Source: Methyloversatilis discipulorum
GTDB lineage: Bacteria > Pseudomonadota > Gammaproteobacteria > Burkholderiales > Rhodocyclaceae
Assembly: GCF_018780585.1 (NCBI RefSeq)
Contig: NZ_JADMJL010000009.1
Span: 1-64,000 of the forward strand
DNA: 64,000 nucleotides
Direction of reading: 5' to 3'
The notes below the pieces were generated by a model. It worked only from the letters and a program-made list of their open reading frames with translations, was not told where the DNA came from and did no database searches. The translations under genes were made by a program, and so were the position numbers. Below, one piece after another: positions 1,681 to 19,676 of this stretch (its first letter is position 1; each line of letters begins with the position of its first letter).

Positions 1681-2408
1681 GAATGTAAATAGCCTTCATG
1701 GGTTTGTACGTACTCTCATCGGAACAGGCTGCGGACAAAGCCGGGTCATGACGGTAAACCGCACACTGTTCAGAGTGCCGGATTCGGTACATGTGCGAGC
1801 TTCATCGGGGCCGACGTGACGTCCTTTCATCCCGTCGTAGCTGTCCGCATATGGGCAAGGAGCATGGGAGCGCATCAGTGGCGGTCCATTGCCCGCTTGT
1901 CGAGCCGCGCCAGGCAATCCCGAAGAACCCAGAACGATTTCGGGGCGCGGAATTGCCAGTATCGTCGCTGTTCGCAACGTGAGCCACGAAGTGCCCCGAC
2001 GCACCCCCAATCCCCCTGAAGCCCTTTTTCCGAACCGTGAGCACTTTCGCCGCTCGTTAGGCGCTAGTGCGATCTTGCGGGTTCCACGGCCTACTGAGTT
2101 CGGGAACGACGACGTCCCCTGTCAGTCCATCGACCGAGATGCCTGAAGGTCACTTGGCTGCAATCGTGACGTAGTACTCTCAGGCAAGTTGCGGTGCCGC
2201 ATACCTTTAGGCTACTTTCAGAGCCTCTCTCTGCTGCTAAACCCAATGGTCACGTGCTTTCAAGTTGTTTTTGGCATGCGTGACGTGTCGATCGGTTGGG
2301 CTCGGATCCGTCGTAGGGAAGACGGCATCAACTCCAAACATCACAAAGCACGTGCTCTCTTGCGTTGTCGTTGCGAGCTCCTTTTTTCATTCTTATTCTG
2401 ACTTTTAC
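1681..2408. other. 728-bp stretch without a recognisable gene
   Basis: Reading frames here are short, overlap on both strands and resemble no family I know. The base composition lies between the G+C-rich host style and the A+T-richer operon downstream. It could be a decayed gene or element, or simply the long leader/promoter region of the exosortase operon. I found no good sigma-70 or sigma-54 promoter by eye and no terminal inverted repeats. Confidence 0.4.
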
Positions 2409-3323: not shown

Positions 3324-3346
3324 TTTTTTGATAGGATTCCGGGTGT

Positions 3347-4069: not shown

Positions 4070-5277
4070 ATCTCTTTATGCACATTTCAGTTGATTTTAA
4101 ACGGCGAATAAAAAGTCTATTTATTGTGGTTTTAACGGCCGGCTGCGCATCACTGGTCGTGACTCCGTTGAGGGCGGAAGATTCATCATTCATGCTCGGT
4201 ATTGCTGGGTCGATCAACGATCCGTCTGCCGCGTGGATCGCCGCTAAAGGCATAGGCGCAATGAGTGTGCGCCTTGATGCTCCATGGGCTCAAATCGAAC
4301 GTCGCAAAGGGGAATATCAGATCCCCCCCAGGTTAATGCGTGCTATCGACGATATTAAGTCGAACGGGCAGGAACCTTTACTTATTCTTGCTTATGGCAA
4401 TCCACTGTACGGTGGTGACAAGCCAAAGGCACGAGAAGCAATTGAAGCGTTTGCGAAGTACTCAGAGTGGCTGGTGAAGGCGCTTGACGGAAAGGTCAGG
4501 TATTTCCAGCTGTGGAACGAATGGGAAACAAAGGTGGGCGGTACCACCCCAGGAAGCGCGGACGATTATGTTTCCTTCGCGAAGGTCGTTGTTCCTGTGA
4601 TTCGTAAAGCGAGTCCTCAGGTTGTGCTGCTTTCCAATGGAATATCATACCCAGGGTTTAAGGACGGCTGGATAGAACGCTTCTTGCAACTGGGCGGCGC
4701 TGCACTATTCGACGGCATCGCATTACATCCATATGTGTGGCATGTCCGGGCCGACTGGAGACCTGAGGCCAGTATCCAAATGGTAGATGCCATTCACGAG
4801 AAAGCAGTTGCCGCTGGAGGCGGAGCGCCCGTAAATATATTCATAACAGAGATTGGGTATCCGACCTTTGAGGGAGAGCTTGGGACCAGTGAGCAGTCAG
4901 CCGCATGGTACCTCACTCGTTTCGTTCTGCTCTCCTACTCCAGGCCATGGATCAAAGGCATATGGTGGTACGGGATACGTGACCAGGGCTCAGACTCGAG
5001 AGAGAAGGAACATCGGTTCGGTGTATTTAGTCATGACATGCAACCCAAGCCGGCATCTTTCGCTTTCAGGAAAGCAGCGGAGCTTGTGTCCTCGGATGTA
5101 AGAGGAAAAATTGAGAACGTCGAAGACCTCTATACTTACAAATCCACGAACGGTCTTTATGAGGTGACTTGGAAATCATCCAAGCCGACGTTGGGAAAGC
5201 TATCGTCATTCATCCAGAGGTCCTCGGACGACTCTTCCGGTCGCCCCGTTGTCATCGAACGAAAGTCACCTAAATGA
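4063..5277 (+). CDS. Secreted glycoside hydrolase, clan GH-A (GH39/PslG-like)
   Basis: A 404-residue exported (beta/alpha)8-type glycosidase. The start may be GTG 4063, GTG 4066 or ATG 4078. A hydrophobic signal at about residues 17-38 could be cleaved after LRA; the LTAGC stretch also weakly resembles a lipobox. Candidate acid/base Glu153 sits in FQLWNEW and candidate nucleophile Glu263 in IFITEIGYP, spaced as in retaining GH-A enzymes. The context is an exopolysaccharide operon, where PslG-type enzymes cut the polymer during synthesis; that role is inferred. It lacks a PEP-CTERM tail. It overlaps epsI at its 5' end, and its stop (ATGA) overlaps the start of the polymerase gene. The catalytic domain of the large protein at 14517-19676 has the same fold signature. 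Confidence 0.78.
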   Translation: MVNLFMHISVDFKRRIKSLFIVVLTAGCASLVVTPLRAEDSSFMLGIAGSINDPSAAWIAAKGIGAMSVRLDAPWAQIERRKGEYQIPPRLMRAIDDIKSNGQEPLLILAYGNPLYGGDKPKAREAIEAFAKYSEWLVKALDGKVRYFQLWNEWETKVGGTTPGSADDYVSFAKVVVPVIRKASPQVVLLSNGISYPGFKDGWIERFLQLGGAALFDGIALHPYVWHVRADWRPEASIQMVDAIHEKAVAAGGGAPVNIFITEIGYPTFEGELGTSEQSAAWYLTRFVLLSYSRPWIKGIWWYGIRDQGSDSREKEHRFGVFSHDMQPKPASFAFRKAAELVSSDVRGKIENVEDLYTYKSTNGLYEVTWKSSKPTLGKLSSFIQRSSDDSSGRPVVIERKSPK

Positions 5278-6596
5278 CATTCACTCTTGGCCTGTTACTC
5301 GCAACAGGCGTTCTTGCTGGGTTGCTCATCAGTCTTGTTTTTCCTCTGCGCCTTCTTACATTTCTTGCAGGTGGCCTTTCGACGCTGCAAATATATACAT
5401 TGCCGATTGGCAACGTCTTCTTTTCAGCCTCTCATCTCGGCGGACTCGGTGCATGGAGAGTACTCGGGAAACAGGATGTGTGGAGCTTTGGCTGGTACCG
5501 CGCAATTGCAGCTTTGGTGTTGATCCAAGCACTTGCGATGTTGTGGTCACCGGAACCTTTCCTGGCCTTCCGTCAGGTGATCTATTGGCTGCCCTTCCTC
5601 TTCGTTGTGCCTGCGGTAATCGAGATGTCCGTTCGAGACAGAGCGTTCGTTGAGAAGATCATCCGAATCGCACTGATAACCAGTGCGATTGAAGCAATGC
5701 TTGTGATTGCATTTCGAGTTTCGCCTGAGTTGGAAGGGATGTTCCTTTCTTCTCCAATCTCTCGGCTATTCATATCAGCCAAGCTTCTGTCCGAAGTTGG
5801 AAATGGAGCTTATACGGTTTTTGATCCAGGCAAGGCTGGTGGGGTTTTTATCAACGCGAATGTCGCGTCAGCGTTTTTGGGCTTTTCTGCGATGGTGGCT
5901 TGGGGCGTTGCTCGTGCATTCAAGTCGAAGCTTCTTTTGTGGATCGGTGTGCTCGACATAGCCGCAGTGTTCTTCACCGGTTCGAAGGCGGGCATGGCAC
6001 TCGCTGTTTTTTTTCCTGCATTGATATTCTCAAGACATGTCATTCGCTCAGGGCAAGTCAATATAAAGTTTGCCGCCGCAGCATGTTTCTTGTCGGCAGC
6101 GATCGGTCTCGCCTTATATTTGGGTTATGAGTACTTTCTCGAAAGTCGCTACGTCGCAAATTCTGAAAAGACACTTTCCTATCGGCTTGCTATCTGGGAA
6201 TTTGCATGGATCGTTCTGCAAAAGAACCCGTTCATTGGCATCGGTTTTGGCGGTTGGGAACTTGATTGGCCTGTTTTCGCGCGAAGCAGAGGGCTGAATC
6301 CGTTCTTTCCGCCACATAATTCATTCATTGCCATCTACGCACAGAGCGGTTTGATTGCGGTCACCCTTGGTTTTATTTACTGTTTCAGTATTCTTAGATA
6401 CTTGTGGCGGACTCTGAAAGTCAATGATCCTGAGGTCAAGCGCCTTGGGGAGGGGTTGCTGTGCGCTGTGCTATGGATGCTCATACAAAGCCAGGCCGAG
6501 AATTACGGATTGATTGGTGAGGTACACCTGACGCCCCTATTGGCGACGGTACTGGGTTACATGGTTTTTCGGTTCCGAGAATTGAATGAGAAATGA
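5274..6596 (+). CDS. O-antigen ligase/polymerase-like membrane protein (Wzy/WaaL family)
   Basis: A 440-residue integral membrane protein with about 11-12 hydrophobic helices. A large extracytoplasmic loop at about residues 290-350 contains the PF04932-type pattern: RLAIWEFAWIVLQKNPFIGIGFGGWE, followed by PHNSFIAIYAQSGLI. The conserved Arg and His in these two motifs are typical of Wzy/WaaL enzymes, which join undecaprenyl-linked repeat units or ligate glycans. In this operon, next to a flippase and four glycosyltransferases, polymerisation of the exopolysaccharide (Wzy role) is the likelier function. ATG 5274 overlaps the preceding stop by four bases, and the end overlaps the next gene by 11 bases. 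Confidence 0.8.
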   Translation: MTFTLGLLLATGVLAGLLISLVFPLRLLTFLAGGLSTLQIYTLPIGNVFFSASHLGGLGAWRVLGKQDVWSFGWYRAIAALVLIQALAMLWSPEPFLAFRQVIYWLPFLFVVPAVIEMSVRDRAFVEKIIRIALITSAIEAMLVIAFRVSPELEGMFLSSPISRLFISAKLLSEVGNGAYTVFDPGKAGGVFINANVASAFLGFSAMVAWGVARAFKSKLLLWIGVLDIAAVFFTGSKAGMALAVFFPALIFSRHVIRSGQVNIKFAAAACFLSAAIGLALYLGYEYFLESRYVANSEKTLSYRLAIWEFAWIVLQKNPFIGIGFGGWELDWPVFARSRGLNPFFPPHNSFIAIYAQSGLIAVTLGFIYCFSILRYLWRTLKVNDPEVKRLGEGLLCAVLWMLIQSQAENYGLIGEVHLTPLLATVLGYMVFRFRELNEK

Positions 6597-7737
6597 CACA
6601 GAAGTGACAAGCGCTCCGGTAGCCGCAATCGTAAGGCTTCAGCTCTTCAAAGCATCCGAGGTCTTTATTTCCGAGCAAGTCAATGCGTTGACGAGGTTCC
6701 GCCCAGTTTTAATCGGACGGGACTGCGTCGGCTCTCCAAAGAACGATTTCGAGTACCGCGTTATGGCGCCTGCGAGCCGCCCGCTTCGAGCGATACGAGC
6801 AGGATTTGGGACAGATTCTTTTTTTCGATCTGCACTTGCGGATTACAAACCTTCAGTTGTTCACGCGCATTTCGGCATTGATGCAGTTGCTGTAATGAAC
6901 TCAGCACAATCCTTGGATTTGCCTCTAGCAACGACTTTCCACGGTTTTGATGCGACAACGCGTTTTGATCGTCTATTAAGGTCCGGAAGTCCTTCCCTGA
7001 TTCGTTATGCGCTTGGACGTAATCGATTGTCAAGGCAAGGCGATCTCTTTATTTGCGTTTCGGATTTCATAAGGAAAAAAGTACTGGAACTGGGCTTTCC
7101 GGAAAACAAGGTTGTGCGACATTATATTGGCACCGATGTAGCTCGTTTCGATGCTGTTTCCGCAGAACGCAACGAAGGGGTGCCGATAGTCCTCCATGTT
7201 GCGCGTCTGGTGGAAAAAAAGGGAACCGCTTACCTCTTGGCCGCGTTCGCGCGCGTCCGGCGCCAATGTCCGGATTCACGCCTTGTCATTATCGGTGAAG
7301 GCCCTCTTCGTGCGCAGCTCGAGGCCCAGATTGACGACTTGGGGTTGGGTGATTCAGTAGAGATGCTTGGTGCGTGCTCTCACGATGAAGTCCTGCAATG
7401 GCTTAAGCGCGCCTCGATATTTGCGTTGCCGAGTGTTACCGCTTCAGATGGCGATACCGAGGGGCTGCCTATTTCCATAATTGAGGCTGCCGCAGCGGGG
7501 TTGCCGATCATTTCTACATGGCACAGTGGGATTCCCGAGGCCATACAGGATGGCGTAGGAGGTGTTCTCGTAGCAGAACGGGACACCGCCGCATTGGCAG
7601 ATGCTCTTCGGCTGCTGCTGTTAGATCCTCAAACAAGAACTCGTATGGGTACGTCTGCACAGCAGTTCATACGCGAGAACTTCGATATACGTACTCAGAC
7701 GAAAAAGCTTGAAGAGCTCTACGCCCGGATTAGATGA
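6586..7737 (+). CDS. Glycosyltransferase family 4 (WcaL/AmsK-like)
   Basis: A 383-residue cytoplasmic GT-B enzyme. The N-terminal domain has VVHAHFGIDAV and TTFHGFDATT. The C-terminal nucleotide-sugar domain has HVARLVEKKGTAYLLAAF near residue 205 and VIIGEGPLR. The E-x7-E region reads ASDGDTEGLPISIIEAAAAGLP, a signature shared with colanic-acid/amylovoran-type transferases. It should add one sugar to the lipid-linked repeat unit at the inner membrane; donor and linkage cannot be read from sequence. It starts within the last codons of the polymerase gene and ends in an ATGA overlap with the next glycosyltransferase, which indicates strict operon organisation. Confidence 0.85.
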   Translation: MRNDTEVTSAPVAAIVRLQLFKASEVFISEQVNALTRFRPVLIGRDCVGSPKNDFEYRVMAPASRPLRAIRAGFGTDSFFRSALADYKPSVVHAHFGIDAVAVMNSAQSLDLPLATTFHGFDATTRFDRLLRSGSPSLIRYALGRNRLSRQGDLFICVSDFIRKKVLELGFPENKVVRHYIGTDVARFDAVSAERNEGVPIVLHVARLVEKKGTAYLLAAFARVRRQCPDSRLVIIGEGPLRAQLEAQIDDLGLGDSVEMLGACSHDEVLQWLKRASIFALPSVTASDGDTEGLPISIIEAAAAGLPIISTWHSGIPEAIQDGVGGVLVAERDTAALADALRLLLLDPQTRTRMGTSAQQFIRENFDIRTQTKKLEELYARIR

Positions 7738-8906
7738 CCATGCATATTCTTGGTGTAAGTCGCACTTTGCCCTTTCACAGCATCGGTGGAATGCAGGCGA
7801 TCGCGTGGGATCTGTTCAAAGAGTTTGTTCAACTTGGGCATAGAGTGACTGTGGTTACAACACGTATTCCAGGCTACCCTGAAAAATTCGTGGAAGATGG
7901 GGTTGAGGTTGTTGCCTTGCAAAAGGCTGCTCCAGAACGCTACACGAGAGCGTGGTGGATTGAATCACGACGAGAAGTCTCGAAAATGTCGGGCGGTATT
8001 GACGCTGTTCTTAGTATTAGCGCTGCGGCAGCTGGATTACTTCCAATACGGACGAGGTTGAAGGGGGTGCCCTTTCTTTTTCAAGCACACGGTACTTCAT
8101 GGGGTGAAATTCTCTCGAAATGGAGTTCCGGAAGGCCTCTGCAATATCTTAAGTCAATAAAGAACTTATATTGGTTGTTCAAAGATATATTAATTTACCG
8201 AGGTTTTGATGAGGTAATTTTGGTCGGTGATGTGTTGGAGAAACAGTTTGCGTCTTGGCCGCTAACTGTGTTAACCACCCACGTCTCTAAGATGGTTATT
8301 AGAAATGGTGTAAATACATCTGTTTTTGCGCCTGACTCTGAAGCAAGGAGGCAAGAGCGCGCTCGACTGGGTTTGAATGATTTTAATCGATTGGTTGTCT
8401 TTGCTGCCCGAATGCATCCGCAGAAAGGTGGGCGTCAAGTATTGCTGGCATTTAGTAAACTGAATCGGGTTTCCCCTGAGTCACATCTTCTTATGATAGG
8501 CGGGGGGGAGGACGAAAAGAATCTTCGCCTAATGGTTGTTAAACTTGGCCTGTCATCTAGGGTTCATTTTACTGGGGCGGTCTCGCGCGATAAGGTTCCA
8601 AAGTTGCTTGCTGCTGGCGATGCGTTTGTTTTTCCAACGTTGCGTCAAGAAGGATTGCCGATGAATGTTTTGGAGGCGCTCGCAACTGGGCTGCCAACTA
8701 TTTGTTCGGACTCTATGCGTGGTGTTTTTGATGCAGACTTGCCTATTCAATATGTGAAGCCTGAGGATATAGATGGTTTGTCGGATGCCATGAAAGATGG
8801 GGTGATGCGCGGTGCTGAAAACAGATCTTTACTTTCAGAGGATTACACCCTCCGCCTTTGTGCAAAATCCTACATTGATCGCCTAGAGTTTTGGATGAAG
8901 CGGTAA
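7734..8906 (+). CDS. Glycosyltransferase family 4
   Basis: A 390-residue GT-B glycosyltransferase. It has the N-terminal glycine-rich acceptor motif SIGGMQAIAWDL, the donor-domain entry FAARMHPQKGGRQVLLAFSKL, MIGGGEDEKNLR, and the EX7E region FPTLRQEGLPMNVLEALATGLP. The start is ATG 7734 (ATGA overlap) or the second ATG two codons later. This is among the most A+T-rich parts of the window: 8161-8220 has only 16 G or C of 60. It should build the same repeat unit as its neighbours. Sugar specificity is unknown. Confidence 0.83.
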   Translation: MTMHILGVSRTLPFHSIGGMQAIAWDLFKEFVQLGHRVTVVTTRIPGYPEKFVEDGVEVVALQKAAPERYTRAWWIESRREVSKMSGGIDAVLSISAAAAGLLPIRTRLKGVPFLFQAHGTSWGEILSKWSSGRPLQYLKSIKNLYWLFKDILIYRGFDEVILVGDVLEKQFASWPLTVLTTHVSKMVIRNGVNTSVFAPDSEARRQERARLGLNDFNRLVVFAARMHPQKGGRQVLLAFSKLNRVSPESHLLMIGGGEDEKNLRLMVVKLGLSSRVHFTGAVSRDKVPKLLAAGDAFVFPTLRQEGLPMNVLEALATGLPTICSDSMRGVFDADLPIQYVKPEDIDGLSDAMKDGVMRGAENRSLLSEDYTLRLCAKSYIDRLEFWMKR

Positions 8907-8909
8907 ATT

Positions 8910-10382
8910 ATGTTCTCGGTTGTGCGTGTTCTTGTCTTGGGTGGGTTGGTGGGGAAGATGCTTGGCGTACTCCGCGAGCTTCTATCTGCCTGGCTTTTTG
9001 GGACAGGTCTTGTCGCCAATTCGTATAGACTTTCCCAGTCTGCGTATCTAATACCTCTTCATGGTTTTGTCTCGGATGCCGTAAATGGGGGCTTTTCGCC
9101 TCGTTTTTCAGTGTTGAAATCAACGGATCCGATCAAAGCGCGTGCTTTGTTTGCATGGCTCCATTTAATACTGCTTGTATTGTCGATTGTCGTTGCGGCT
9201 TTTTTGGTTGTTTTTTCAACTCAGTGGGCGAGGTTCTTGGCACCGGGGTTCGGCCCCTCAGCAATTGCTCTTTCGTCCGATTTCATTCGGGTTTTGGCAA
9301 TATCGCTCCCGTCATATGCGGTTGTCTCTCTTTATTCGGCCGTTGATCTTTCGGCGGGCTCTGGTGCTATATCTGCTGCAAGGGCTTCGATTCAAAGTTT
9401 AGGTTTGATAATCGGTACCCTGCTTGCTTGGTTAATGGGGCAACCACTTTTTATTGCTGGCGGCTTTGTGGTGGCCTATTTTTTGCTGAGCTTTTGGGGC
9501 GCCCGTGTTGCGCTCGGCCACGGGATGAGTTTCTCCGTTTTTGATTGCTTTAATAATGCGCGAAGTGAACTTATCGATGTCTGGAGATCGTTCAGGACAT
9601 TGATTTGGATCCCTGTTTTGCTGCAGGTCCATCAAACTATTGAGAGACAAGTCGCGTCTATTGTTCATCCCGATGCAATATCGGCGTTAGATTACGCACG
9701 GTTTGTTAGTGATACCCTTGTCGTTCTCGTGGCGGTGCCATTTGCGACAGCCGGTTTGTCAACAATGGCAAGGATGAGTGATGCAGAGTTTATTGCCGGT
9801 GCATCTAGATCTTTTCGGGTTCTGTTGCTGATTGGCGTTCCAGTTTCCGCTATTTTTTTTCAGGGTAGCGAGTTTATTGTTCGCTTGCTTTTTCAGCGAG
9901 GTGCTTTTGGCGAAGGTTCTGTACTAATCACTAGTGATTTGATGGCGGCACTGTCGGTTGGGGTGTGGGGTCAGCTGATTGGATACGCAGGAGGGCGCTT
10001 TCTCAGCGCAAGAGCACGGAACGCTGAGGTGCTCGTAATAACTGCGATTAGTGTTTTCGCAAATATTGCGGTCAACCTTAGTTTGGCGCGCGAGTTCGGC
10101 GTCGCCACGATGGGTGTTGCAGCAGCCGTAAACGGTATCTTGTTTGGAGGACTTGCTCTCTGGCGAGTAGGTTTAGATAAGTCCTGTTTTAAATTTCTTC
10201 TGCAGGTTATTTTCTTCGCGGTTCTTTATTGCCTTCTTGTTCAGCTTTTATTTTCTTTTTCTGATGGGGTGTTTTCGTTCTTCGGTGTCACGGCTCTCTT
10301 CTGGCTGTTTGTTTTATTTTCCTCTCGGCGAATGAAAGACGTATTCCTTGATTTGCTTGCGATATTGCGCCGTGGGCAGTAA
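8910..10382 (+). CDS. MurJ/MVF-family lipid-linked oligosaccharide flippase (Wzx role)
   Basis: A 490-residue polytopic membrane protein with about 12-14 helices. The N-terminus (GGLVGKMLGVLRELLSAWLFG) and the segment NSYRLSQSAYLIP match the MurJ/MviN branch of the MOP exporter superfamily (PF03023); the host MurJ would be encoded elsewhere. In an exopolysaccharide operon such a protein most likely flips the undecaprenyl-diphosphate repeat unit across the inner membrane. A conserved Arg in the first helix (VLREL) and the later RGAFGEGS stretch fit the family. It starts three bases after the preceding stop and is followed closely by another glycosyltransferase gene. Confidence 0.78.
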   Translation: MFSVVRVLVLGGLVGKMLGVLRELLSAWLFGTGLVANSYRLSQSAYLIPLHGFVSDAVNGGFSPRFSVLKSTDPIKARALFAWLHLILLVLSIVVAAFLVVFSTQWARFLAPGFGPSAIALSSDFIRVLAISLPSYAVVSLYSAVDLSAGSGAISAARASIQSLGLIIGTLLAWLMGQPLFIAGGFVVAYFLLSFWGARVALGHGMSFSVFDCFNNARSELIDVWRSFRTLIWIPVLLQVHQTIERQVASIVHPDAISALDYARFVSDTLVVLVAVPFATAGLSTMARMSDAEFIAGASRSFRVLLLIGVPVSAIFFQGSEFIVRLLFQRGAFGEGSVLITSDLMAALSVGVWGQLIGYAGGRFLSARARNAEVLVITAISVFANIAVNLSLAREFGVATMGVAAAVNGILFGGLALWRVGLDKSCFKFLLQVIFFAVLYCLLVQLLFSFSDGVFSFFGVTALFWLFVLFSSRRMKDVFLDLLAILRRGQ

Positions 10383-10408
10383 TTGCATTGATTTTAGGGT
10401 TTTTGTTT

Positions 10409-11569
10409 ATGCGAGATATAGTGCTTCTTTCTACTGCTGACTGGGATAATCCGTTTTGGACAAATAAGCAACATGTAGCATGCGAGCTCGCGAGGCGAGG
10501 TCACAGGGTTCTCTATGTTGACTCTCTCGGGTTGCGCCGCCCTTCGGCTAGCACGCAGGATTTGACGCGAATTCTAAGGCGCCTCAGAAAGGCGCTCCGT
10601 GCGCCCCGCGAAGTACGGGCCGGCGTATGGGTGTGGTCGCCCCTTGTTATTCCATTTCAGCGTTTCGGCTGGATACGGACCTTGAACAGACTTCTGCTGC
10701 GGCTGGGGCTTCAGTTCAATCTGTGGTGGTTAAGAATGAACAGAGATCTGTTCTGGACCTATAATCCGATGACAGTGCGATTTTTCGATCACAAGCGATT
10801 CAAGCAGACGATCTATCACTGTGTGGATGAAATTAAGGCTCAACCCGGAATGCCCGTTGATGAGATTGAGCGGGCCGAAGATGAGCTTGTTCGTGCCGCA
10901 GACCTGTGTTTTGTAACGGCGGAGCATTTGTTGGAAACAAGGCGCAGACTCAACCCTAATACGCATTACTTTTCGAATGTCGCAGATTTTGAGCACTTCT
11001 CCAGAGCGATGGATTGTTCTGTTGACATTCCGAATGATTTGACGGTTCTTCCACCTCCGCGAATAGGCTTCATTGGCGCAATCAGTGGTTATAAGGTTGA
11101 TTTCTCATTGTTGCGCGCGATGGCTGAGGCACATCCCGATTGGTCTATTGTGCTTATCGGGAAGGTCGGTGAGGGCGATCCGTGGACTGACGTATCTTCG
11201 CTCAAGGATCTCGAGAATATTCATTTCATCGGTCCAAGAAGCTACGAATCCCTTCCTGCATATCTCAAGGGATTTGATGTTGCGATCCTTCCCAGCATGA
11301 TCAACGAGTATACGCGAGGTATGTTTCCAATGAAGTTCTTTGAGTACCTTGCTGCGGGTTGCCCTGTCGTGTCCACACGTCTTCATGCAATTTCTGGGTA
11401 TGCAGGTGTGGCTTACCTCGCGGATGATCGGTCGGATTTTATTAGAGGTGTCGAACAGGCGCTTTCAGGTCATTGTGCACGATTGCCCGAACGCCTTGAT
11501 GCGGCGAGAGATCAGACATATGAACGCCGGACGGAAAGGATGATGCAGCTGGTTGGCGAATCGACATGA
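10409..11569 (+). CDS. Glycosyltransferase, TuaH/GT1-like
   Basis: The frame opens at a TTG (10388), but ATG 10409 gives a better N-terminus (MRDIVLLSTADWDNPFWTN), so I predict 386 residues. The protein has the GT-B layout with DLFWTYNPMT, a YHCVDEIKAQPG motif near residue 140, and the donor-site region VAILPSMINEYTRGMFPMKFFEYLAAGCPVV, where the EYLAAGCPV text is characteristic of the family. It resembles the TuaH-like transferases of teichuronic acid and exopolysaccharide loci. The precise sugar is not known. It ends in an ATGA overlap with the next gene. Confidence 0.78.
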   Translation: MRDIVLLSTADWDNPFWTNKQHVACELARRGHRVLYVDSLGLRRPSASTQDLTRILRRLRKALRAPREVRAGVWVWSPLVIPFQRFGWIRTLNRLLLRLGLQFNLWWLRMNRDLFWTYNPMTVRFFDHKRFKQTIYHCVDEIKAQPGMPVDEIERAEDELVRAADLCFVTAEHLLETRRRLNPNTHYFSNVADFEHFSRAMDCSVDIPNDLTVLPPPRIGFIGAISGYKVDFSLLRAMAEAHPDWSIVLIGKVGEGDPWTDVSSLKDLENIHFIGPRSYESLPAYLKGFDVAILPSMINEYTRGMFPMKFFEYLAAGCPVVSTRLHAISGYAGVAYLADDRSDFIRGVEQALSGHCARLPERLDAARDQTYERRTERMMQLVGEST

Positions 11570-12735
11570 GTTCCTCACCTATGCGAGTTGCAATCATTCA
11601 TGACTGGTTGACTGTGTATGCCGGCGGCGAGAAGGTTCTCGAACAGATGCTTCATGTTTGGCCGGACGCGGATCTTTATTCCGTCGTTGATTTTCTGAGA
11701 GATGATCAACGTGGTTTCATTCGTGGAAAACGAGCGTGCACAACTTTCATTCAGAGATTGCCAAAGGCGAAAGATAAGTATCGGAGTTATCTTCCGCTGA
11801 TGCCGCTGGCAATTGAGCAGCACGATCTTTCTGGTTATGACCTCGTTCTTTCTTCGAGCCATGCGGTTGCCAAAGGAGTGTTAACTGGCCCCGATCAAGT
11901 GCATGTGAGCTACGTTCACTCTCCTATCCGTTATGCGTGGGATCTTCAAAGTCAGTATTTGCGTGAGGCGGGGCTTCTCAGTGGGTTAAAGTCCTGGATT
12001 GCTCGGTCTATTTTGCATTACATCCGTCTATGGGACTATCGTACTGCAAATGGCGTTGATCAGTTTCTCGCAAATTCTGAGTTTATCGCGCGTCGTATTC
12101 GTAAGGTGTACGGGAGAGACTCAGCAGTTCTTTACCCTCCTGTAGATGTCGATCGATTTACAGTCGGAGTTGAGAAAGATTCATTTTATTTGACGGCGTC
12201 TAGGATGGTGCCTTACAAAATGATTCCGTTAATCGTTGAGGCTTTCTCGAGGATGCCCGAGAAGACTTTGATAGTTATCGGAGATGGCCCCGAGTTTGGG
12301 CGCGCGAAGGCTGCCGCGGGATCCAATGTCCAATTACTTGGATTCCAGTCGACCGATGTAATGGTGGAGTACATGCAAAAGGCTCGCGCTTTTGTTTTTG
12401 CAGCCGAAGAGGATTTTGGCATCACTCCGGTCGAGGCGCAGGCTTGTGGGACTCCTGTAATCGCTTACGGTAAGGGCGGTGCTCTTGAAACCGTCGTCGG
12501 CGCGGAGGGTGGAAGCTCAAGAACAGGGGTGTTTTTCGGCGCGCAGACGGTGGAACAGATCTGTGAGGCAGTCCGCACATTTGAGTGCTTGCCGATTCCG
12601 ATCTCGGCGGATGCATGTCGCCGCAATGCGGAGAGATTCTCTGTGGAGGCTTTTCGTTCAGGACTCCGCGAGCTTGTGGATGGCGCTATACGGGCACACC
12701 ACTCGAACTACCGATCTTGTTCTGAACAGCGTTGA
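11566..12735 (+). CDS. Glycosyltransferase family 4 (WbaZ-like)
   Basis: A 389-residue GT-B glycosyltransferase. The N-terminal motif IIHDWLTVYAGGEKVLEQML and the HSPIRYAWDL motif near residue 122 are typical of the WbaZ/mannosyltransferase-like GT4 group. In the donor domain I see TASRMVPYKMIPLIVEAF, VIGDGPEF and AEEDFGITPVEAQACGTPVIAYGKGG. It starts by ATGA overlap with its predecessor and is followed after 42 bases by ugd copy 1. G+C rises abruptly at the ugd start, so this is the last A+T-rich gene of the operon. Confidence 0.83.
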   Translation: MSSSPMRVAIIHDWLTVYAGGEKVLEQMLHVWPDADLYSVVDFLRDDQRGFIRGKRACTTFIQRLPKAKDKYRSYLPLMPLAIEQHDLSGYDLVLSSSHAVAKGVLTGPDQVHVSYVHSPIRYAWDLQSQYLREAGLLSGLKSWIARSILHYIRLWDYRTANGVDQFLANSEFIARRIRKVYGRDSAVLYPPVDVDRFTVGVEKDSFYLTASRMVPYKMIPLIVEAFSRMPEKTLIVIGDGPEFGRAKAAAGSNVQLLGFQSTDVMVEYMQKARAFVFAAEEDFGITPVEAQACGTPVIAYGKGGALETVVGAEGGSSRTGVFFGAQTVEQICEAVRTFECLPIPISADACRRNAERFSVEAFRSGLRELVDGAIRAHHSNYRSCSEQR

Positions 12736-12777
12736 GTAGCTGTCTTCCATTGGCTTCGATGTTTTTTCGGGAAAATT

Positions 12778-14100
12778 ATGAAGATCACCGTAATCGGCAC
12801 CGGGTACGTAGGCCTGGTCTCCGGGGCCTGCATGGCCGAGATGGGCAACGACGTGCTGTGTCTGGACCTTGATCCGGAGAAGATCCGCATCCTGAAGGAA
12901 GGCGGCATTCCGATCCACGAGCCGGGCCTGGACGCGGTGGTTGCGCGCAACGTCGAGGCAGGGCGGCTGCACTTCACGACGGACGTGGCCGAGGCGGTGC
13001 GCTTCGGCACCATCCAGTTCATCGCCGTGGGCACGCCGCCGGACGAGGACGGCTCGGCCGACCTGCAATACGTGCTGTCGGCCGCGCGCAACATCGGCCG
13101 GCTGATGACCGACTACAAGGTGGTGGTCGACAAGAGCACGGTGCCGGTGGGCACGGCCGACAAGGTGAAGGCGGCGATTGCCGACGAACTGGCCAAGCGC
13201 GGTCAGGAGATGGAATTCGCCGTGGTGTCGAACCCGGAATTCCTGAAGGAAGGTGCGGCCGTTGAAGACTTCATGCGTCCGGACCGCATCGTGGTGGGTG
13301 CCGACGACGAGCGAGCCATCCACCTGATGCGCGCGCTGTACGCCCCGTTCCAGCGCAACCGCGACAAGCTGGTGGTGATGGACGTGCGCAGCGCGGAACT
13401 CACGAAGTACGCGGCCAACGCGATGCTTGCCACGCGGATCAGCTTCATGAACGAACTGGCACTGCTGGCCGACCGGATGGGTGCCGACATCGAAATGGTG
13501 CGCCAGGGCATCGGCTCGGACCCGCGCATCGGCTACCACTTCCTGTACGCCGGCTGCGGCTACGGCGGCAGCTGCTTCCCGAAGGACGTGAAGGCGCTGA
13601 TCCGCACCGCACGCGAGAACGGTCAGGACCTGAAAGTGCTGCAGGCGGTGGAAGACGCCAACGACGTGCAGAAGATGGTGCTGGTGGACAAGATCGTCGC
13701 GAAGTTCGGAGAAGATCTGTCGGGCCGCCGCTTCGCGCTGTGGGGCCTGGCGTTCAAGCCCAACACCGACGACATGCGCGAGGCGCCGAGCCGGGTCATC
13801 ATCAACGAACTGTTCCGTCGCGGCGCGACGGTGACGGCCTACGACCCGGTGGCGATGACGGAAACGAAGCGCATCTACGGCGACGAGCCGCGGCTGACGC
13901 TGGCCGACAAGCCGATGGACGCGCTTGAAGGCGCGGACGCGCTGCTGATCGTGACGGAGTGGAAGGAATTCCGCAGCCCGGACTTCGAGCGGATCAAGTC
14001 GGCGCTGAAGCAACCGGTGATCTTCGACGGACGCAATCTGTACGAGCCGGAGGTGCCGCGCGCCGCCGGCATCGAGTACTCGGCCATCGGCCGGCGCTGA
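12778..14100 (+). CDS. ugd: UDP-glucose 6-dehydrogenase, copy 1
   Basis: A 440-residue cytoplasmic enzyme oxidising UDP-glucose to UDP-glucuronate with two NAD+. It has the Rossmann glycine motif [13 protein letters not shown] at the N-terminus, [23 protein letters not shown], and catalytic Cys261 in the GGSCFPKD motif, then the C-terminal UDP-binding domain ([17 protein letters not shown]). The protein is identical to the copy at 25536-26858. At DNA level I count about 20 differences, all synonymous, with 15 of them inside 13257-13482. The similarity begins after codon 3 and ends at the stop codon; flanks are unrelated. Its host-like G+C-rich codons contrast with the preceding genes. It supplies UDP-GlcA for the exopolysaccharide. 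Confidence 0.95.
12787..14097 (+). repeat. Long direct repeat, ugd copy A (pairs with 25545-26855)
   Basis: About 1.31 kb that is nearly identical to 25545-26855 at an offset of 12758 bases and in the same orientation. Stretches 12787-13256 and 13483-14012 read as identical in both copies. The repeat is confined to coding sequence. Homologous recombination between the copies would delete or duplicate the intervening 12.8 kb. Confidence 0.9.
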
Positions 14101-14333
14101 AGTAAGCCAGCAAGTTGCGGCGCAGACCAATTACGGACGTCAACGATGTTCGCAGAACGGCTACAGCTGATGGCAGAGGCGGCCTGCGGCTTTGCCTCTC
14201 GCACGGCGCGAAGGGTGATGTCTGATGAGAATAAGGGGCACTTCCTTCTTCTGTTGTTTTCCGTAACACATCTTTCGCTAAAGTAGAGTGCGTGCTTGAC
14301 GTTGATTGCGTCAGTTCACGTTTTTTAACTGAA
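14101..14333 (+). promoter_or_regulatory. Upstream region and candidate promoter of the riboswitch-controlled gene
   Basis: No gene is supported. A weak sigma-70-like pair TTGTTT (14254-14259) and TAAAGT (14279-14284), with a long 19-base spacer, would start transcription near 14291, about 40 bases before the riboswitch. A loose GAGGC/GCCTC hairpin at about 14176-14200 may end the ugd transcript. Both are only plausible by eye. Confidence 0.3.
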
Positions 14334-14416
14334 AAGGGCAAGCCCAGCTGAAAGGTTGGGTACGCAAAGTCTCCGGTCTAAGGGAAGCTCCGTCTTCTAC
14401 GATAGCGGGATTGCCA
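14334..14416 (+). ncRNA. Cyclic di-GMP-I riboswitch (GEMM-I)
   Basis: The stretch has the GEMM-I landmarks in order. AGGGCAA (14335-14341) is followed by a stem CCCAGCT/GGTTGGG closed by a GAAA tetraloop (14343-14360). Next come the invariant ACGCAAAG (14362-14369) and the tetraloop-receptor segment CTCCGGTCTAAG (14371-14382). After a small hairpin, TAGCGGGATTGCC (14403-14415) closes the P1 helix through pairing of GGCAA with TTGCC. This matches the Vibrio cholerae Vc2 layout almost position by position. It lies in the leader of the large secreted hydrolase gene that starts at 14517, so c-di-GMP very probably controls that gene. The direction of control (on or off) cannot be read with confidence. 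Confidence 0.92.
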
Positions 14417-14432
14417 GTGGTTCTCCTCTTGT

Positions 14433-14515
14433 CGCTCGTCCTGAGCGCGGGGTACGTCCTCCTTGCCCGGCAGCATTGAATTTTTCTGATGCTGTGTTCA
14501 TATCGGGAGTTCCCG
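14433..14515 (+). promoter_or_regulatory. Candidate riboswitch expression platform
   Basis: Three hairpins lie between the riboswitch and the start codon: CGCTC/GAGCG (14433-14447), CAGCAT/ATGCTG (14471-14494, with TTTTT in its loop), and CGGG/CCCG with loop AGTT (14504-14515). The last one contains the GGGAG Shine-Dalgarno of the 14517 ATG, so translation could be gated by opening it. No strong intrinsic terminator with a trailing T tract is present, which favours translational over transcriptional control. Confidence 0.4.
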
Positions 14516-14516
14516 G

Positions 14517-17500
14517 ATGCATACCCCCAAATCGCTTGTCGTCCAGTTCTTTCGTTCTCTGTTGAGAACGCAGTTGTTTCACACTCGTGGATCGCGCAAT
14601 TTCTTGGCAAGGGTGCGGGTATGCATGATGGCGCTGCTGATGTCGGTTCTGGCATCTGGCGCACAGGCAGGAACGATACTGGATCAGTTTGAGGACCCGG
14701 ATCTCACCGGCTGGAGCATCTATCGGATACCGGCGACCAGCGATGTTGGCTCGATCAGTCCTGTCGCCGGATATCTCGGATCCGGCGGTCTTGCTCTTAA
14801 CTACAACTTTACTTGCACAACGGTAGATACGACTTGCGGCCAGGCTGCAGCAGCGGTCTTCACGTTGCCGCAAGCGATGACGCCGGGAGTTGGCATTGGT
14901 TTCATGACGCGTTCGTCACCGGAGGTGACGTTGTACGTGCGCGTACTGGACGAGAGCGGACAGACGTTGCAGTACCGGGCACCGAGGCCGCTGCAGGGGT
15001 TTGATCCGCAGGCGTGGTACTCGGTGGCGATAGACCTGAGCAAACCTACGAGTTACTGGGGAGGCGCGAACAGCGGGGCGATCCAGGGCAAGGTGAAGGC
15101 TATCTGGGTGCTGGGCGAGAGCCGAATTGGACGCTCGATCAGCGGAGTCGTGTCGATCGATGATCTGGTGATGCTGACCGCATTGCCGGCAGAGCGCGTG
15201 CTGACGTATGTGAATGGCAAGGCGTTGCTGGATGGATTCGACAACCGGACGATGGTGGAGCCGTGGTCGTTTGCCAAGAGCTCCGTGGCGGGTACGGCAG
15301 GCAGTGTTGTATCGGGAGCAGGGCATTCAAGCACGCGAGGGCTCGCGCTGAACTACGGCTTCACGTGTGCAACGGTCGGCGCGAACTGCGGGCAGTACGT
15401 GATGGCGCAGCTGGAGTTGTCGGAGCCGTTGGTCGCCGGACTTGGGCTGCGTTTCATGACCCGTTCGTCGCCGGAGATCACGCTGTTTGCGCGCGTGGTG
15501 GATGAGAGCGGTCAGACGCTGCAGTACCGCGTTGCACGGACGGTTGAGGGCATTGATCCGGCGGTGTGGTACGAGGCAGCAATCGACTTTGCGTTGCCCA
15601 TGGGTCACTGGGGCGGCGCGAACAGCGGGCGTATCCAGGGGAAGTTGAAGGCGATCCAGATTGTTGCGGAGAGCCGCGTGGGCAGGGCGATAAGCGGAGC
15701 GGTGTTGATTGACACGGTATCGATGTCGTCGGAACTGCCCGCGGCGCGCACGCTGAGTTACACGAACGGTCGCTTTCTGCTGGATGGACTGGACACGCGA
15801 GCCATCTATGAGCCGTGGTCATTCGGTAAATCGGGAACGGGCACAAGCGGCGGATTGAGCCTGGTTACAGGGCATGCGAGCACGCGCGCACTGGGTCTGA
15901 ACTACGGTTTCACCTGCACGACGGCGGGAAGCAGTTGTGGTCAGAGCGTGACCGCGACACTGAATCTGGAGCAGGCCCTGCCGGCGGGGGGCGGCATCAG
16001 TTTGATGACCCGTTCTCCGGCTTCGGTGCGATTGGTATTGCGCGTGCTGGATACGAGTGGCCAGACGCTGCAGTACGCGTTGGCACGTCCGTCGGAAGGT
16101 AGCGACGGTATGACCTGGTACGAAGCGAGCGCTGATCTGAGCAAGCCGTCTAGCTATTGGGGCGGAGCGAACTCGGGCTCAATCAGTGGCTACGTCCGTG
16201 CGATCACTGTGCTTGTGGAGAGCACCGGAGGCGTTGCGACATCGGGCAGCGTTTCGATTGATAGCCTGAGCATGCTCCAGTTGGCGCCCTTGCCCTCCTT
16301 TGTCGCGGGTAAGGCTGTTCTTGACTCTGCTGAGTCGCCCAACCTTCCTGGGTGGAGCTTCACTAGCCTGGGTAACGGAGTAGGAGGGGCGATAGAAGGG
16401 GCGGCGGGTTACGCGAGCACCCAATCGATCGGACTGAACTACGCGTTCACATGCATAGCGGGCGAAGCGACCTGCAACCGTGCTGCAGCAGCGGTCTTCA
16501 CGTTGCCGCAAGCGATGACGCCGGGAGTTGGCATTGGTTTCATGACGCGTTCGTCACCGGAGGTGACGTTGTACGTGCGCGTACTGGACGAGAGCGGACA
16601 GACGTTGCAGTACCGGGCACCGAGGCCGCTGCAGGGGTTTGATCCGCAGGCGTGGTACTCGGTGGCGATAGACCTGAGCAAACCTACGAGTTACTGGGGA
16701 GGCGCGAACAGCGGGGCGATCCAGGGCAAGGTGAAGGCTATCTGGGTGCTGGGCGAGAGCCGAATTGGACGCTCGATCAGCGGAGTCGTGTCGATCGATG
16801 ATCTGGTGATGCTGACCGCATTGCCGGCAGAGCGCGTGCTGACGTATGTGAATGGCAAGGCGTTGCTGGATGGATTCGACAACCGGACGATGGTGGAGCC
16901 GTGGTCGTTTGCCAAGAGCTCCGTGGCGGGTACGGCAGGCAGTGTTGTATCGGGAGCAGGGCATTCAAGCACGCGAGGGCTCGCGCTGAACTACGGCTTC
17001 ACGTGTGCAACGGTCGGCGCGAACTGCGGGCAGTACGTGATGGCGCAGCTGGAGTTGTCGGAGCCGTTGGTCGCCGGACTTGGGCTGCGTTTCATGACCC
17101 GTTCGTCGCCGGAGATCACGCTGTTTGCGCGCGTGGTGGATGAGAGCGGTCAGACGCTGCAGTACCGCGTTGCACGGACGGTTGAGGGCATTGATCCGGC
17201 GGTGTGGTACGAGGCAGCAATCGACTTTGCGTTGCCCATGGGTCACTGGGGCGGCGCGAACAGCGGGCGTATCCAGGGGAAGTTGAAGGCGATCCAGATT
17301 GTTGCGGAGAGCCGCGTGGGCAGGGCGATAAGCGGAGCGGTGTTGATTGACACGGTATCGATGTCGTCGGAACTGCCCGCGGCGCGCACGCTGAGTTACA
17401 CGAACGGTCGCTTTCTGCTGGATGGACTGGACACGCGAGCCATCTATGAGCCGTGGTCATTCGGTAAATCGGGAACGGGCACAAGCGGCGGATTGAGCCT

Positions 17501-19676
17501 GGTTACAGGGCATGCGAGCACGCGCGCACTGGGTCTGAACTACGGTTTCACCTGCACGACGGCGGGAAGCAGTTGTGGTCAGAGCGTGACCGCGACACTG
17601 AATCTGGAGCAGGCCCTGCCGGCAGGTGCAGTTATCAGCTTCATGACGCGATCGCCTGTACATACCCAATTGAGCTTACGCGTAATAGATGAGAGCGGCC
17701 AGACTCTGCAGTATCGATTGATTCGACCGTTGGAGGGGTACGACCCCGTAGTTTGGTATCAAGTGCATGTCGACTTGGCTAAACCGAGCACCTATTGGGG
17801 CGGGGCGAATAGCGGGGTAATTTTTGGGCGACTGATTGCTATTTCCGTTTTGGTTGAAAGCGGGGTGGACCAGCAGGTTAGTGGGACCGTGTCACTTGAT
17901 GCAATAACCATGCTATCAACTGCCCCTGAGTTACAAGAGAAAGCGTTTTCAGACGGCGCACTCAGCATCGACACATTCGACAGTCGAGAAGTAGCAGCAC
18001 CATGGGTATCGGGTACATCCGACGCTCGGACAACAGCCAGTGTTGCGATTGCGGAAGGTTATTCAAGCAGAAACGCCTTGTCGCTAGCCTATAGTTTTTC
18101 TTGTGAATCATCGAACTCATGTGGCACATATGCAGTGGCTGACTTCAGTCTTCCATTTCCGCATCAAGCGGGGGCTGCGTTCCAAATGAGGGTGAAGCAT
18201 GCAGCTGATGTTAAATTGAAACTGAGAGTTCGAGATCAAACTGGGCAAACGCTTCAATATGAGGTTGAGAGAACGCTTGAAGGGCAATACCCTGATCGGT
18301 GGTATCTCGCAAACGTTCGCCTCGACACTCCCGAGACCTATTGGGGCGGAAGCCAGACGGGCAGGATCGGTGGAAGCGTCGTGGGAGTCTCTTTGATAGT
18401 CGAGAATACGCTTCAAATACCCGGCGCAGGTACGGCTCTGTTCGATGATCTAAGAGTCGTTGAGATGCCAATTGATAGCCATTTCATTGATTTGCAGGCT
18501 GTTTCGCTTATTGCCCCTCCCACTACTGCTCGCTTGGTGGGCAACCGTTTCGGAGTGGCAAACCACACTAGAACAATTTCAACTCCTTACGAAAAGGCCA
18601 GCTCCGCCGGATTGTCATTCGTTCGAATGGACTTGAAGTGGGAAGCTATCGAGGTGGACGGCTTCTTTAACTTTTCTCATTTTGATACGGCTTTGTCGCT
18701 GGCTGAAGCAAACGGACTGGGGATGCTTTTTATTATCGACTATGGACACCCTTCGTACGATCTATCCACAGTTGATGGAATGAAGGGGTTCGGACGGTTT
18801 GCCGAGGAGGCTGCGCGGCGCTATGCTGGACGCAATGTCCGATTTGAAATATGGAATGAACCGGATCATCCTCAGTTCTGGTTTGGCAATCCGAATCCGA
18901 TCGAATACGCCAATCTGTGCAAAATTGCCGTGGCGGCCATAAGAAAAGTCAACCCATCTGCGATAGTCTCCACTGGAGGGCTGACGAAATTCAATTTCAG
19001 TTATCTTAAGGCTATGCTGAATTCAGGGGGCGCGACAAACTTCGACGCGATTTCCGTTCATAGTTACGAAGAGGATACGCCGGAACTGATTGTCGATGGA
19101 GTGGTAATGTCTAGAGAGCTGATCGAGAGAGCCACGGGGAGAGAATACCCTCTGTGGATGACAGAATCAGGCTTTTCGAATGGCCGGGTTCCCGGACTCG
19201 CATCGTCAATCGAATTTCAGGAGATTCAGGCTCAGTACTTGACACGGAAGATGCTGACTTTCTGGGCGTTGGATCTTCCTCTTGCGGTGTGGTACAGCTT
19301 GGTTGACCGTGGCATCGATCCCATTGAGAGGGAAGATAATTTTGGGATGCTTTTTAACGATTTTTCTGACAAGCCGTCCATCAATGCAATGCGAGTTTTC
19401 TCGGATAACCTCGGGTCACAGACATACATGGGTTTGCATGATCATTTGCCTCCAAACATGCATGCGATGTCTTTTGAAAATTCTACGGATCGCACCCTTG
19501 TTGTTTGGCAAGATGGTCTGGGAAAGACTGGCCGGATTTCTATCTCCTCAAACAAATTAATCGACGCTCAAGACTATCTGGGCAGAACGATTACAGGGGA
19601 CTGGGGTTCAGATGGGTTGGTTTCATTCGAGCTGACAGATCTCGGAGGCCCGGTTTACATAAAATTTAGAAAATAA
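14517..19676 (+). CDS. Large secreted multi-module protein with C-terminal glycoside hydrolase domain
   Basis: A 1719-residue exported protein. A basic N-terminus leads into a hydrophobic signal at about residues 31-51, with cleavage near GAQA. Seven related modules of about 182 residues follow, starting near 54, 237, 421, 601, 783, 967 and 1150. Each has an LDxF/D-W opening, an FTC...CG cysteine pair (likely disulfide), SGQTLQY, WY, and a YWGGANSG-like motif (GHWGGANSG in modules 2 and 5, TYWGGSQTG in module 7), then ESG..SGxVSID. They look like beta-sandwich carbohydrate-binding modules; that is inference. From about 1342 a GH-A hydrolase domain carries candidate acid/base Glu1448 (IWNEP) and nucleophile Glu1550 (WMTESGF). 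Modules 1-3 and 4-6 share a 1142-bp repeat. There is no PEP-CTERM tail. The last module and hydrolase domain are A+T-richer than modules 1-6. Expression is under a GEMM-I riboswitch. Confidence 0.85.
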   Translation: MHTPKSLVVQFFRSLLRTQLFHTRGSRNFLARVRVCMMALLMSVLASGAQAGTILDQFEDPDLTGWSIYRIPATSDVGSISPVAGYLGSGGLALNYNFTCTTVDTTCGQAAAAVFTLPQAMTPGVGIGFMTRSSPEVTLYVRVLDESGQTLQYRAPRPLQGFDPQAWYSVAIDLSKPTSYWGGANSGAIQGKVKAIWVLGESRIGRSISGVVSIDDLVMLTALPAERVLTYVNGKALLDGFDNRTMVEPWSFAKSSVAGTAGSVVSGAGHSSTRGLALNYGFTCATVGANCGQYVMAQLELSEPLVAGLGLRFMTRSSPEITLFARVVDESGQTLQYRVARTVEGIDPAVWYEAAIDFALPMGHWGGANSGRIQGKLKAIQIVAESRVGRAISGAVLIDTVSMSSELPAARTLSYTNGRFLLDGLDTRAIYEPWSFGKSGTGTSGGLSLVTGHASTRALGLNYGFTCTTAGSSCGQSVTATLNLEQALPAGGGISLMTRSPASVRLVLRVLDTSGQTLQYALARPSEGSDGMTWYEASADLSKPSSYWGGANSGSISGYVRAITVLVESTGGVATSGSVSIDSLSMLQLAPLPSFVAGKAVLDSAESPNLPGWSFTSLGNGVGGAIEGAAGYASTQSIGLNYAFTCIAGEATCNRAAAAVFTLPQAMTPGVGIGFMTRSSPEVTLYVRVLDESGQTLQYRAPRPLQGFDPQAWYSVAIDLSKPTSYWGGANSGAIQGKVKAIWVLGESRIGRSISGVVSIDDLVMLTALPAERVLTYVNGKALLDGFDNRTMVEPWSFAKSSVAGTAGSVVSGAGHSSTRGLALNYGFTCATVGANCGQYVMAQLELSEPLVAGLGLRFMTRSSPEITLFARVVDESGQTLQYRVARTVEGIDPAVWYEAAIDFALPMGHWGGANSGRIQGKLKAIQIVAESRVGRAISGAVLIDTVSMSSELPAARTLSYTNGRFLLDGLDTRAIYEPWSFGKSGTGTSGGLSLVTGHASTRALGLNYGFTCTTAGSSCGQSVTATLNLEQALPAGAVISFMTRSPVHTQLSLRVIDESGQTLQYRLIRPLEGYDPVVWYQVHVDLAKPSTYWGGANSGVIFGRLIAISVLVESGVDQQVSGTVSLDAITMLSTAPELQEKAFSDGALSIDTFDSREVAAPWVSGTSDARTTASVAIAEGYSSRNALSLAYSFSCESSNSCGTYAVADFSLPFPHQAGAAFQMRVKHAADVKLKLRVRDQTGQTLQYEVERTLEGQYPDRWYLANVRLDTPETYWGGSQTGRIGGSVVGVSLIVENTLQIPGAGTALFDDLRVVEMPIDSHFIDLQAVSLIAPPTTARLVGNRFGVANHTRTISTPYEKASSAGLSFVRMDLKWEAIEVDGFFNFSHFDTALSLAEANGLGMLFIIDYGHPSYDLSTVDGMKGFGRFAEEAARRYAGRNVRFEIWNEPDHPQFWFGNPNPIEYANLCKIAVAAIRKVNPSAIVSTGGLTKFNFSYLKAMLNSGGATNFDAISVHSYEEDTPELIVDGVVMSRELIERATGREYPLWMTESGFSNGRVPGLASSIEFQEIQAQYLTRKMLTFWALDLPLAVWYSLVDRGIDPIEREDNFGMLFNDFSDKPSINAMRVFSDNLGSQTYMGLHDHLPPNMHAMSFENSTDRTLVVWQDGLGKTGRISISSNKLIDAQDYLGRTITGDWGSDGLVSFELTDLGGPVYIKFRK
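14844..15985 (+). repeat. 1142-bp direct repeat inside the modular gene, copy 1
   Basis: Reads as identical to 16482-17623 at an offset of 1638 bases (546 codons, three modules), from GCTGCAGCAG to the GCCGGC before the copies diverge. It covers most of modules 1 and 2 and the first part of module 3. Frame is preserved, so recombination between copies would add or remove exactly three modules. Confidence 0.92.
16482..17623 (+). repeat. 1142-bp direct repeat inside the modular gene, copy 2
   Basis: Second copy of the repeat at 14844-15985, separated from it by a 496-bp stretch encoding the end of module 3 and start of module 4. It covers most of modules 4 and 5 and the first part of module 6. 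The absence of even synonymous changes points to recent duplication, ongoing gene conversion, or an assembly artefact. Confidence 0.92.

Follow-up and report, generated by a model that had tools for sequence, protein, structure and literature searches.

A probable c-di-GMP-I riboswitch in the leader of a modular PslG-type glycosidase gene of Methyloversatilis discipulorum

The influence of c-di-GMP on matrix polysaccharides is usually exerted via transcription factors or via binding to the synthase. In Methyloversatilis discipulorum, a c-di-GMP-I (GEMM-I) aptamer had been noted in front of the gene for a large modular hydrolase, which raises the question of whether the amount of a polysaccharide-cutting enzyme is set by c-di-GMP directly at the RNA level, and in which direction. 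The locus was here analysed in a window of 64,000 nucleotides (contig NZ_JADMJL010000009.1, positions 1 to 64,000, forward strand) as well as in the genome of the strain and in genomes of relatives. The leader is very probably a c-di-GMP-I riboswitch by which the amount of a large PslG-type endoglycosidase, probably exported and rich in CBM-like modules, is coupled to cellular c-di-GMP.

Comparison of both strands of the 64-kb window with all Rfam families gave a match of RF01051 (c-di-GMP-I) at 14327-14418 on the plus strand, which covers positions 1-87 of the 87 model positions with 61.9 bits (gathering score 35) and an E-value of 1.1e-9. No other Rfam match was obtained in the window at the gathering thresholds, and RF01051 was the sole match listed for 14100-14700 at E<=1, two lower-scoring overlapping matches of its clan having been left out. 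The 3′ end of this complete aptamer is located 98 nt upstream of the ATG at 14517, in the 5′ leader and on the same strand. The covariance-model test with RF01051 proposed in the initial annotation was thus carried out, with a score well over the threshold and the full model length, which confirms the GEMM-I aptamer claimed for this leader. All landmarks named there were found as well (the GAAA loop, ACGCAAAG, CTCCGG-CTAAG and TAGCGGG-TTGCC); of the span that it had assigned, 14334-14516, the end is the last base before the ATG and the start was placed 7 nt within the aptamer. A possible outer P1 stem, recognised by eye and lying beyond the columns paired in the Rfam model, is formed by ACUG at 14328-14331 and CAGU at 14415-14418. 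The ligand-contact letters are kept, namely G14337 (Vc2 G20), A14366 (A47) and CC at 14414-14415, which spans C92; the register of the Vc2 positions on the window follows the cmscan alignment and what we take to be the Vc2 numbering, the choice of C92 between the two Cs being presumed in the same way. For Vc2, G20, A47 and C92 are described as the ligand contacts in the part of PMC4744006 concerned with this aptamer. By covariance match the leader RNA belongs to the c-di-GMP-I riboswitches and would be expected to bind c-di-GMP.

The gene behind the aptamer (14517-19676, plus strand) has the 1719 codons that had been claimed for it. The protein is composed of a signal-peptide-like segment (residues 1-51, as read by eye), seven CBM-like modules (52-1324) and a PslG-type catalytic domain (about 1325-1719). 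Initiation further downstream, at codon 37 (ATG 14625), was rejected by reading, as the signal peptide would then have 15 residues and lack a basic start. The catalytic domain matched PslG (5bx9) by sequence with an E-value of 6.6e-14 and, as a predicted fold with a pLDDT of 83.7, by Foldseek with an E-value of 3.6e-23 and a TM score of 0.79; Pfam Cellulase and Glyco_hydro_39 both passed the cut-off. E1448 (WNEP) and E1550 (TE) are invariant in 9/9 aligned domains and, by alignment, are the likely counterparts of the catalytic pair E165 and E276 that is given for PslG in the relevant part of PMC9075953.

The module of approximately 180 aa is present in seven copies (14670-18488) with an invariant W, a WGG and two Cys, and across genomes the copy number is 1, 3, 5, 6 or 7. 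AlphaFold predicted a beta-sandwich (pLDDT 93), for which Foldseek listed CBM11, CBM28, CBM61, CBM22 and CBM4 chains (TM 0.44-0.62, identity mostly 9-17%), the CBM11 chains reaching E-values of 7e-6 to 1.4e-5 and a TM score of 0.62. Agarases, viral turret, flagellar sheath and NDUFAF1-type chains were matched too, and because the top TM score (0.71) belonged to an NDUFAF1-type chain, the fold alone is no proof of sugar binding. Among 37 modules, none matched a Pfam CBM family at E<=0.01 and one gave a weak PAS_PdeA match. The modules are therefore called CBM-like, with sugar binding as a prediction from the fold. Together with the catalytic domain and the signal-peptide-like N-terminus, they lend support to the earlier description of the product as a polysaccharide-active secreted protein, as far as sequence can indicate.

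Within the gene, repeat search and shift comparison detected a perfect direct repeat of 1142 bp (14844-15985 and 16482-17623, plus strand, period 1638), in which the stretch from the latter half of module 1 through the initial part of module 3 corresponds to modules 4-6. It begins 327 bp into the gene and lies outside the leader. Tandem Repeats Finder, with periods up to 500, reported no array. The repeat is a recent duplication, the product of gene conversion, or an assembly matter.

In other genomes, the pair of aptamer and hydrolase gene was traced by several searches. A scan of named genomes with the whole protein as query gave 98 loci, 80 of which were kept. Modular homologues with 37-39% identity were found in the Rhodocyclaceae MAGs HKST-UBA161, HKST-UBA162 and HKST-UBA163; the leader was present in two of the three loci, and in both RF01051 was found ahead of the start codon, with 76.3 and 65.9 bits. 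HKST-UBA162 and HKST-UBA163 are G138 and G225 in the following. When a module profile was applied to the 80 loci, clear modules were seen in these three MAGs, and a single module in L048 from an alphaproteobacterial MAG. Among 395 genomes drawn from the family, nine had profile matches at E<=1e-20, namely the genome of the strain itself, five of genus g73 (including the three HKST-UBA MAGs), G207, G186 and G195, the match in G195 being confined to the catalytic domain. The module profile added G451, a member of another family, from 399 genomes drawn from the order, and no further genome with modules was found among 369 drawn from the class. The modules were absent from the 12 other genomes of the window's genus; conservation of the pair within the genus was thus rejected, the module search having returned the own genome alone (1/61).

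An intact leader aptamer was present in 6/8 genomes with at least three modules, these six belonging to three genera of two families. The distance from the intact aptamer to the ATG is 98 nt in the own genome, 80 nt in G138 and in G225, 84 nt in G202, 83 nt in G245 and 146 nt in G451. In G245 the aptamer, the start codon and the first codons are located at a contig end and the remainder of the gene opens another contig. G451 has a 5.2-Mb genome, and the aptamer 146 nt before its hydrolase gene is the sole one found there. The outer P1 stem, as judged by eye, reads UCGAG/CUCGA in G138, G225 and G245 and CGAG/CUCG in G202, and is unformed in G451. The four g73 cases represent one lineage and are not independent, so that three lineages were counted. 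From position alone, the chance that an aptamer falls within the 250 nt 5′ of a given gene, on the right strand, was estimated at about 2-5e-5 per genome. Since the pair recurs across three genera, with proteins about 37-40% identical, the link to the downstream gene is strengthened, which supports the assignment of the aptamer to this gene in the initial annotation.

In G173 the start region and the gene are intact and the aptamer core is changed (GCGCAAGCC, GACGCAGTGACC; L223, about 7030-7115); no RF01051 match was obtained in this leader at E<=10, and G173 is by appearance a natural loss of the switch. G207 has no aptamer in the hydrolase leader and carries an RF01051 aptamer elsewhere only. 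For the one-module genes of G186 and L048 (locus of 17.7 kb), no aptamer was found near the gene. Remote module-like matches in L049, L060 and L065 (E-values from 5e-4 to 3e-8) showed no aptamer on the scan and are outside the tally. The pair thus seems to go with the many-module form of the gene. Because the switch is absent in G207, G186 and L048 and decayed in G173, it is not essential to the gene.

Upstream of the hydrolase gene, an exopolysaccharide/exosortase cluster extends over 2265-14100 on the plus strand with genes for an exosortase, EpsI (DUF3485), a second PslG-like hydrolase, a Wzy_C protein, glycosyltransferases, a MurJ-like flippase and a UDP-glucose dehydrogenase. The second PslG-like hydrolase (4063-5277) is 25% identical to the riboswitch-linked one and keeps both catalytic glutamates in the alignment; it gave no Pfam match. 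A PEP-CTERM-like protein with matches below the curated cut-offs is encoded 5′ of the cluster at 222-1637. UDP-glucose dehydrogenase-type genes of 440 aa each are found twice in the window, at 12778-14100 and 25536-26858, and a CHASE-PAS-GGDEF-EAL protein, possibly a c-di-GMP turnover enzyme, is encoded at 60881-63487, about 46 kb from the riboswitch. The separation of the hydrolase gene from the upstream operon, as stated in the initial annotation, is plausible at most: 416 nt separate the upstream stop from the ATG, and a simple scan found no promoter 5′ of the hydrolase gene.

The genomic surroundings were compared in the relatives. In G186 the cluster is present in the same order, with glycosyltransferases 46-72% and the dehydrogenase 84% identical, and the one-module hydrolase gene stands at its end. 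In G207 the hydrolase gene adjoins glycosyltransferase (67% identical) and acyltransferase genes. Its neighbours in G451 are a further PslG-like gene (32%) and a gene for UDP-glucose dehydrogenase (72%), and a glycosyltransferase is encoded about 4.6 kb upstream. For g73, the few annotated neighbours at L045 encode a gamma-glutamyltranspeptidase, a nucleotidyl transferase and a redoxin and do not form an EPS operon. The polysaccharide of the adjacent cluster would be the expected substrate of the enzyme in the window.

The own genome (81 contigs, 4.56 Mb) contains two c-di-GMP-I aptamers, the one in the hydrolase leader and a second before a DUF1631 gene (L188 501-589, which is contig C46 126905-126993). 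In 61 genomes (own and 60 relatives), RF01051 was matched at E<=0.001 in 36 and above the cut-off in 35; relatives' scores reach 88.2 bits and many exceed the 61.9 bits of the window. For the other 64 of the 65 aptamer places, up to 4 kb of downstream sequence was used and the longest ORF starting within 700 nt was taken as a crude target. These 64 proteins and three hydrolases were clustered by BLAST, and one representative each of the DUF1631 and M12-like clusters was checked by Pfam. The DUF1631 cluster comprised 20 of the 67 proteins. In the window's genus the aptamer-DUF1631 pairing is found in 13/13 genomes and, as judged by this pairing, DUF1631 appears to be a core c-di-GMP target there. 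M12-like metalloproteases accounted for 10 of the 67 (L125 and nine similar loci) and came from 8/13 genomes of the genus as well as from one further genus; 21 of the 67 were singletons. The pairing of an aptamer with an M12-like metalloprotease is reminiscent of the PPEP-1 switch of C. difficile; no aptamer of this type was found in the own genome. At one place in a relative (L147 and L148, G015 C18), two divergent, near-identical aptamers on opposite strands are about 350 bp apart.

The 98 nt between the aptamer and the start codon (14419-14516) are presumed to be the expression platform. A Shine-Dalgarno-like GGGAG is located at 14505-14509, 7 nt 5′ of the ATG, and folding predicted a start-codon hairpin at 14449-14527, in which GGGGUACGUCC pairs with GGAUG..UACCCC. 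The predicted fold of 14446-14535 has -30.5 kcal/mol compared with -23.3 (sd 3.3) kcal/mol in shuffles, 9 of 300 shuffles being equally stable. No intrinsic terminator was found between the aptamer and the start codon, and control would for this reason be expected at translation, by Rho-dependent termination or through mRNA stability. A terminator-like site at 14553-14570 was discarded; it lies within the coding frame, and one such site was found against 1.2 expected in shuffles. CTTGCCC at 14462-14468 is the exact complement of GGGCAAG in the aptamer core (14336-14342). As a switch pairing it was dropped, since a complement of 7 nt also arises in 7% of shuffled platforms; a 6-nt version occurs in the own-genome DUF1631 leader and is absent from most DUF1631 leaders of the genus.

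Free and aptamer-forced ensembles were compared for five leaders (window, G138, G225, G202 and G245), each at four 3′ ends; as a control, 60 mononucleotide-shuffled platforms per leader were used at a single 3′ end. The G451 leader was outside this set. The predicted access of the ribosome site did not change consistently on binding across the five leaders. In the window leader, predicted Shine-Dalgarno access differed by -0.02 to 0.00 (bound minus free) and the AUG was buried in both states. Over the four 3′ ends the predicted differences were +0.11, +0.01, -0.06 and -0.14 for G138 and -0.37, -0.54, -0.50 and -0.08 for G225, whereas they ranged from -0.11 to 0.00 for G202 and were -0.44 at one 3′ end and 0 at three for G245. 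At one 3′ end of G225, access is predicted to fall from 0.66 to 0.12 on binding, compared with -0.07 (sd 0.16) for the shuffled platforms, and at 2/4 3′ ends of this leader the AUG is predicted to open while the Shine-Dalgarno closes. A run with three leaders and other 3′ ends gave different values for G138 and G225. The strong predicted Shine-Dalgarno changes in g73 are losses on binding and lean toward OFF, and they vary with the chosen 3′ end.

Direct c-di-GMP control of the hydrolase of the EPS cluster is the best reading of these data, and from the position of the aptamer we infer that it acts on this gene. According to this reading, c-di-GMP would bind the aptamer in the hydrolase leader and thereby set the enzyme level. 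At high c-di-GMP the matrix would be built and the hydrolase turned down, leaving the matrix uncut; on a fall in c-di-GMP, the hydrolase would rise and cut the matrix. This OFF direction, on which the initial annotation rightly took no position, is the weakest step of the explanation and is mildly favoured, mainly because of the logic of the arrangement and the precedent of a C. difficile protease. Class I switches are described 5′ of motility, adherence and surface genes, and those of C. difficile that function are OFF switches, one of which governs a secreted protease that releases surface proteins (passages of PMC6366702 on this species). The class I switches of V. cholerae act in opposite directions and not via termination, as far as the same source treats them, and the direction is for this reason not transferable between species. 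ON, as the complement of the OFF reading, is the somewhat less probable direction. A fuller form of it, in which the hydrolase rises with c-di-GMP alongside the polysaccharide and, being CBM-rich, remodels or anchors the matrix during biofilm growth rather than in dispersal, is doubtful and yet has to be taken seriously. The array of seven CBM-like modules, with five or six in the g73 relatives, suggests strong matrix binding, Vc1 before gbpA, the gene of a secreted chitin-recognising protein of V. cholerae, is described as an ON switch in the section of PMC4744006 on it, and the PslG activity of P. aeruginosa plays an important part in Psl production and in normal development of the biofilm in the account of PMC9075953. 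If an active hydrolase were produced at the same time as its likely substrate, however, further control would be needed, and the predicted RNA folding gives no evidence for the ON direction.

The remaining explanations concern the aptamer itself. That it is a relic or poorly functional, the gene being in practice free of c-di-GMP control, would fit the decayed aptamer before the intact gene in G173, the score below those of many relatives, and the non-functional class I switches reported for C. difficile in the corresponding passages of PMC6366702; it is nevertheless improbable, as the contact letters are intact, the model is matched over its full length, the outer P1 pairing is maintained by other letters in four leaders of g73 (G451 being the exception), and the pair is retained across three genera. 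Chance similarity or misassembly of the leader deserves hardly any weight. The perfect repeat of 1142 bp in the gene may give rise to assembly errors, but it starts 327 bp into the gene and not in the leader; the E-value and the coverage of the whole model speak against chance, and the same pair in other genomes against both. It is also very improbable that the ligand is 3′,3′-cGAMP, as for Geobacter GEMM-Ib switches, since these cGAMP switches carry G20A and a G occupies the G20 position here (14337). In favour of such a ligand, natural variation of the binding pocket can shift GEMM-I specificity, as the pertinent part of PMC8835794 describes.

If c-di-GMP control of the hydrolase holds, an RNA switch sets the level of a polymer-cutting enzyme and provides a one-step link from the signal to matrix turnover. 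Relatives whose aptamer has decayed or is missing provide a natural control, in which the same enzyme can be compared in the presence and in the absence of the switch. The wider proposal, which is evenly balanced, is a conserved RNA-level coupling of c-di-GMP to an enzyme dedicated to matrix cutting in Burkholderiales-type bacteria, where a riboswitch on a CBM-array PslG-type endoglycosidase, whose CBM-like modules form a family that has no Pfam name, would directly switch dispersal or remodelling of the exosortase-linked exopolysaccharide from the adjacent cluster. Beyond that, the case is an ordinary extension of the GEMM theme, the control of surface and exported proteins. This riboswitch class is an established one, and a target of this kind fits it; the PslG-type CBM-array hydrolase of an exosortase-linked EPS cluster would be a new target. 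Among the titles and abstract openings listed by searches of open-access literature, none pointed to a c-di-GMP riboswitch ahead of a PslG-like gene.

Several known systems share parts of this arrangement. With CBM11, CBM28, CBM4 and CBM22 the module has the predicted beta-sandwich in common, and it differs from these named families in that 37/37 modules are without a Pfam CBM family and the Foldseek identity is mostly 9-17%. The V. cholerae switches Vc1 (gbpA) and Vc2 (RF01051) share the covariance match, the contact letters and a leader position before a gene whose product acts on or binds carbohydrates, whereas the target here is a PslG-type glycosidase with CBM-like modules. The class I switch of C. 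difficile zmpI (PPEP-1) follows a similar logic, as it is placed on an exported enzyme that undoes surface attachment; in the description of PMC6366702 it is an OFF switch that acts by transcription termination on a protease, in contrast to the glycosidase leader analysed here, in which no terminator was seen. PslG of P. aeruginosa shares the catalytic domain in sequence and fold, the Glu pair and a gene position beside a polysaccharide cluster. It is without modules (solved chain of 416 aa, compared with 1719 aa here), and its gene is co-transcribed with psl in the account given in PMC9075953, whereas the hydrolase gene of M. discipulorum has its own leader with a probable riboswitch.
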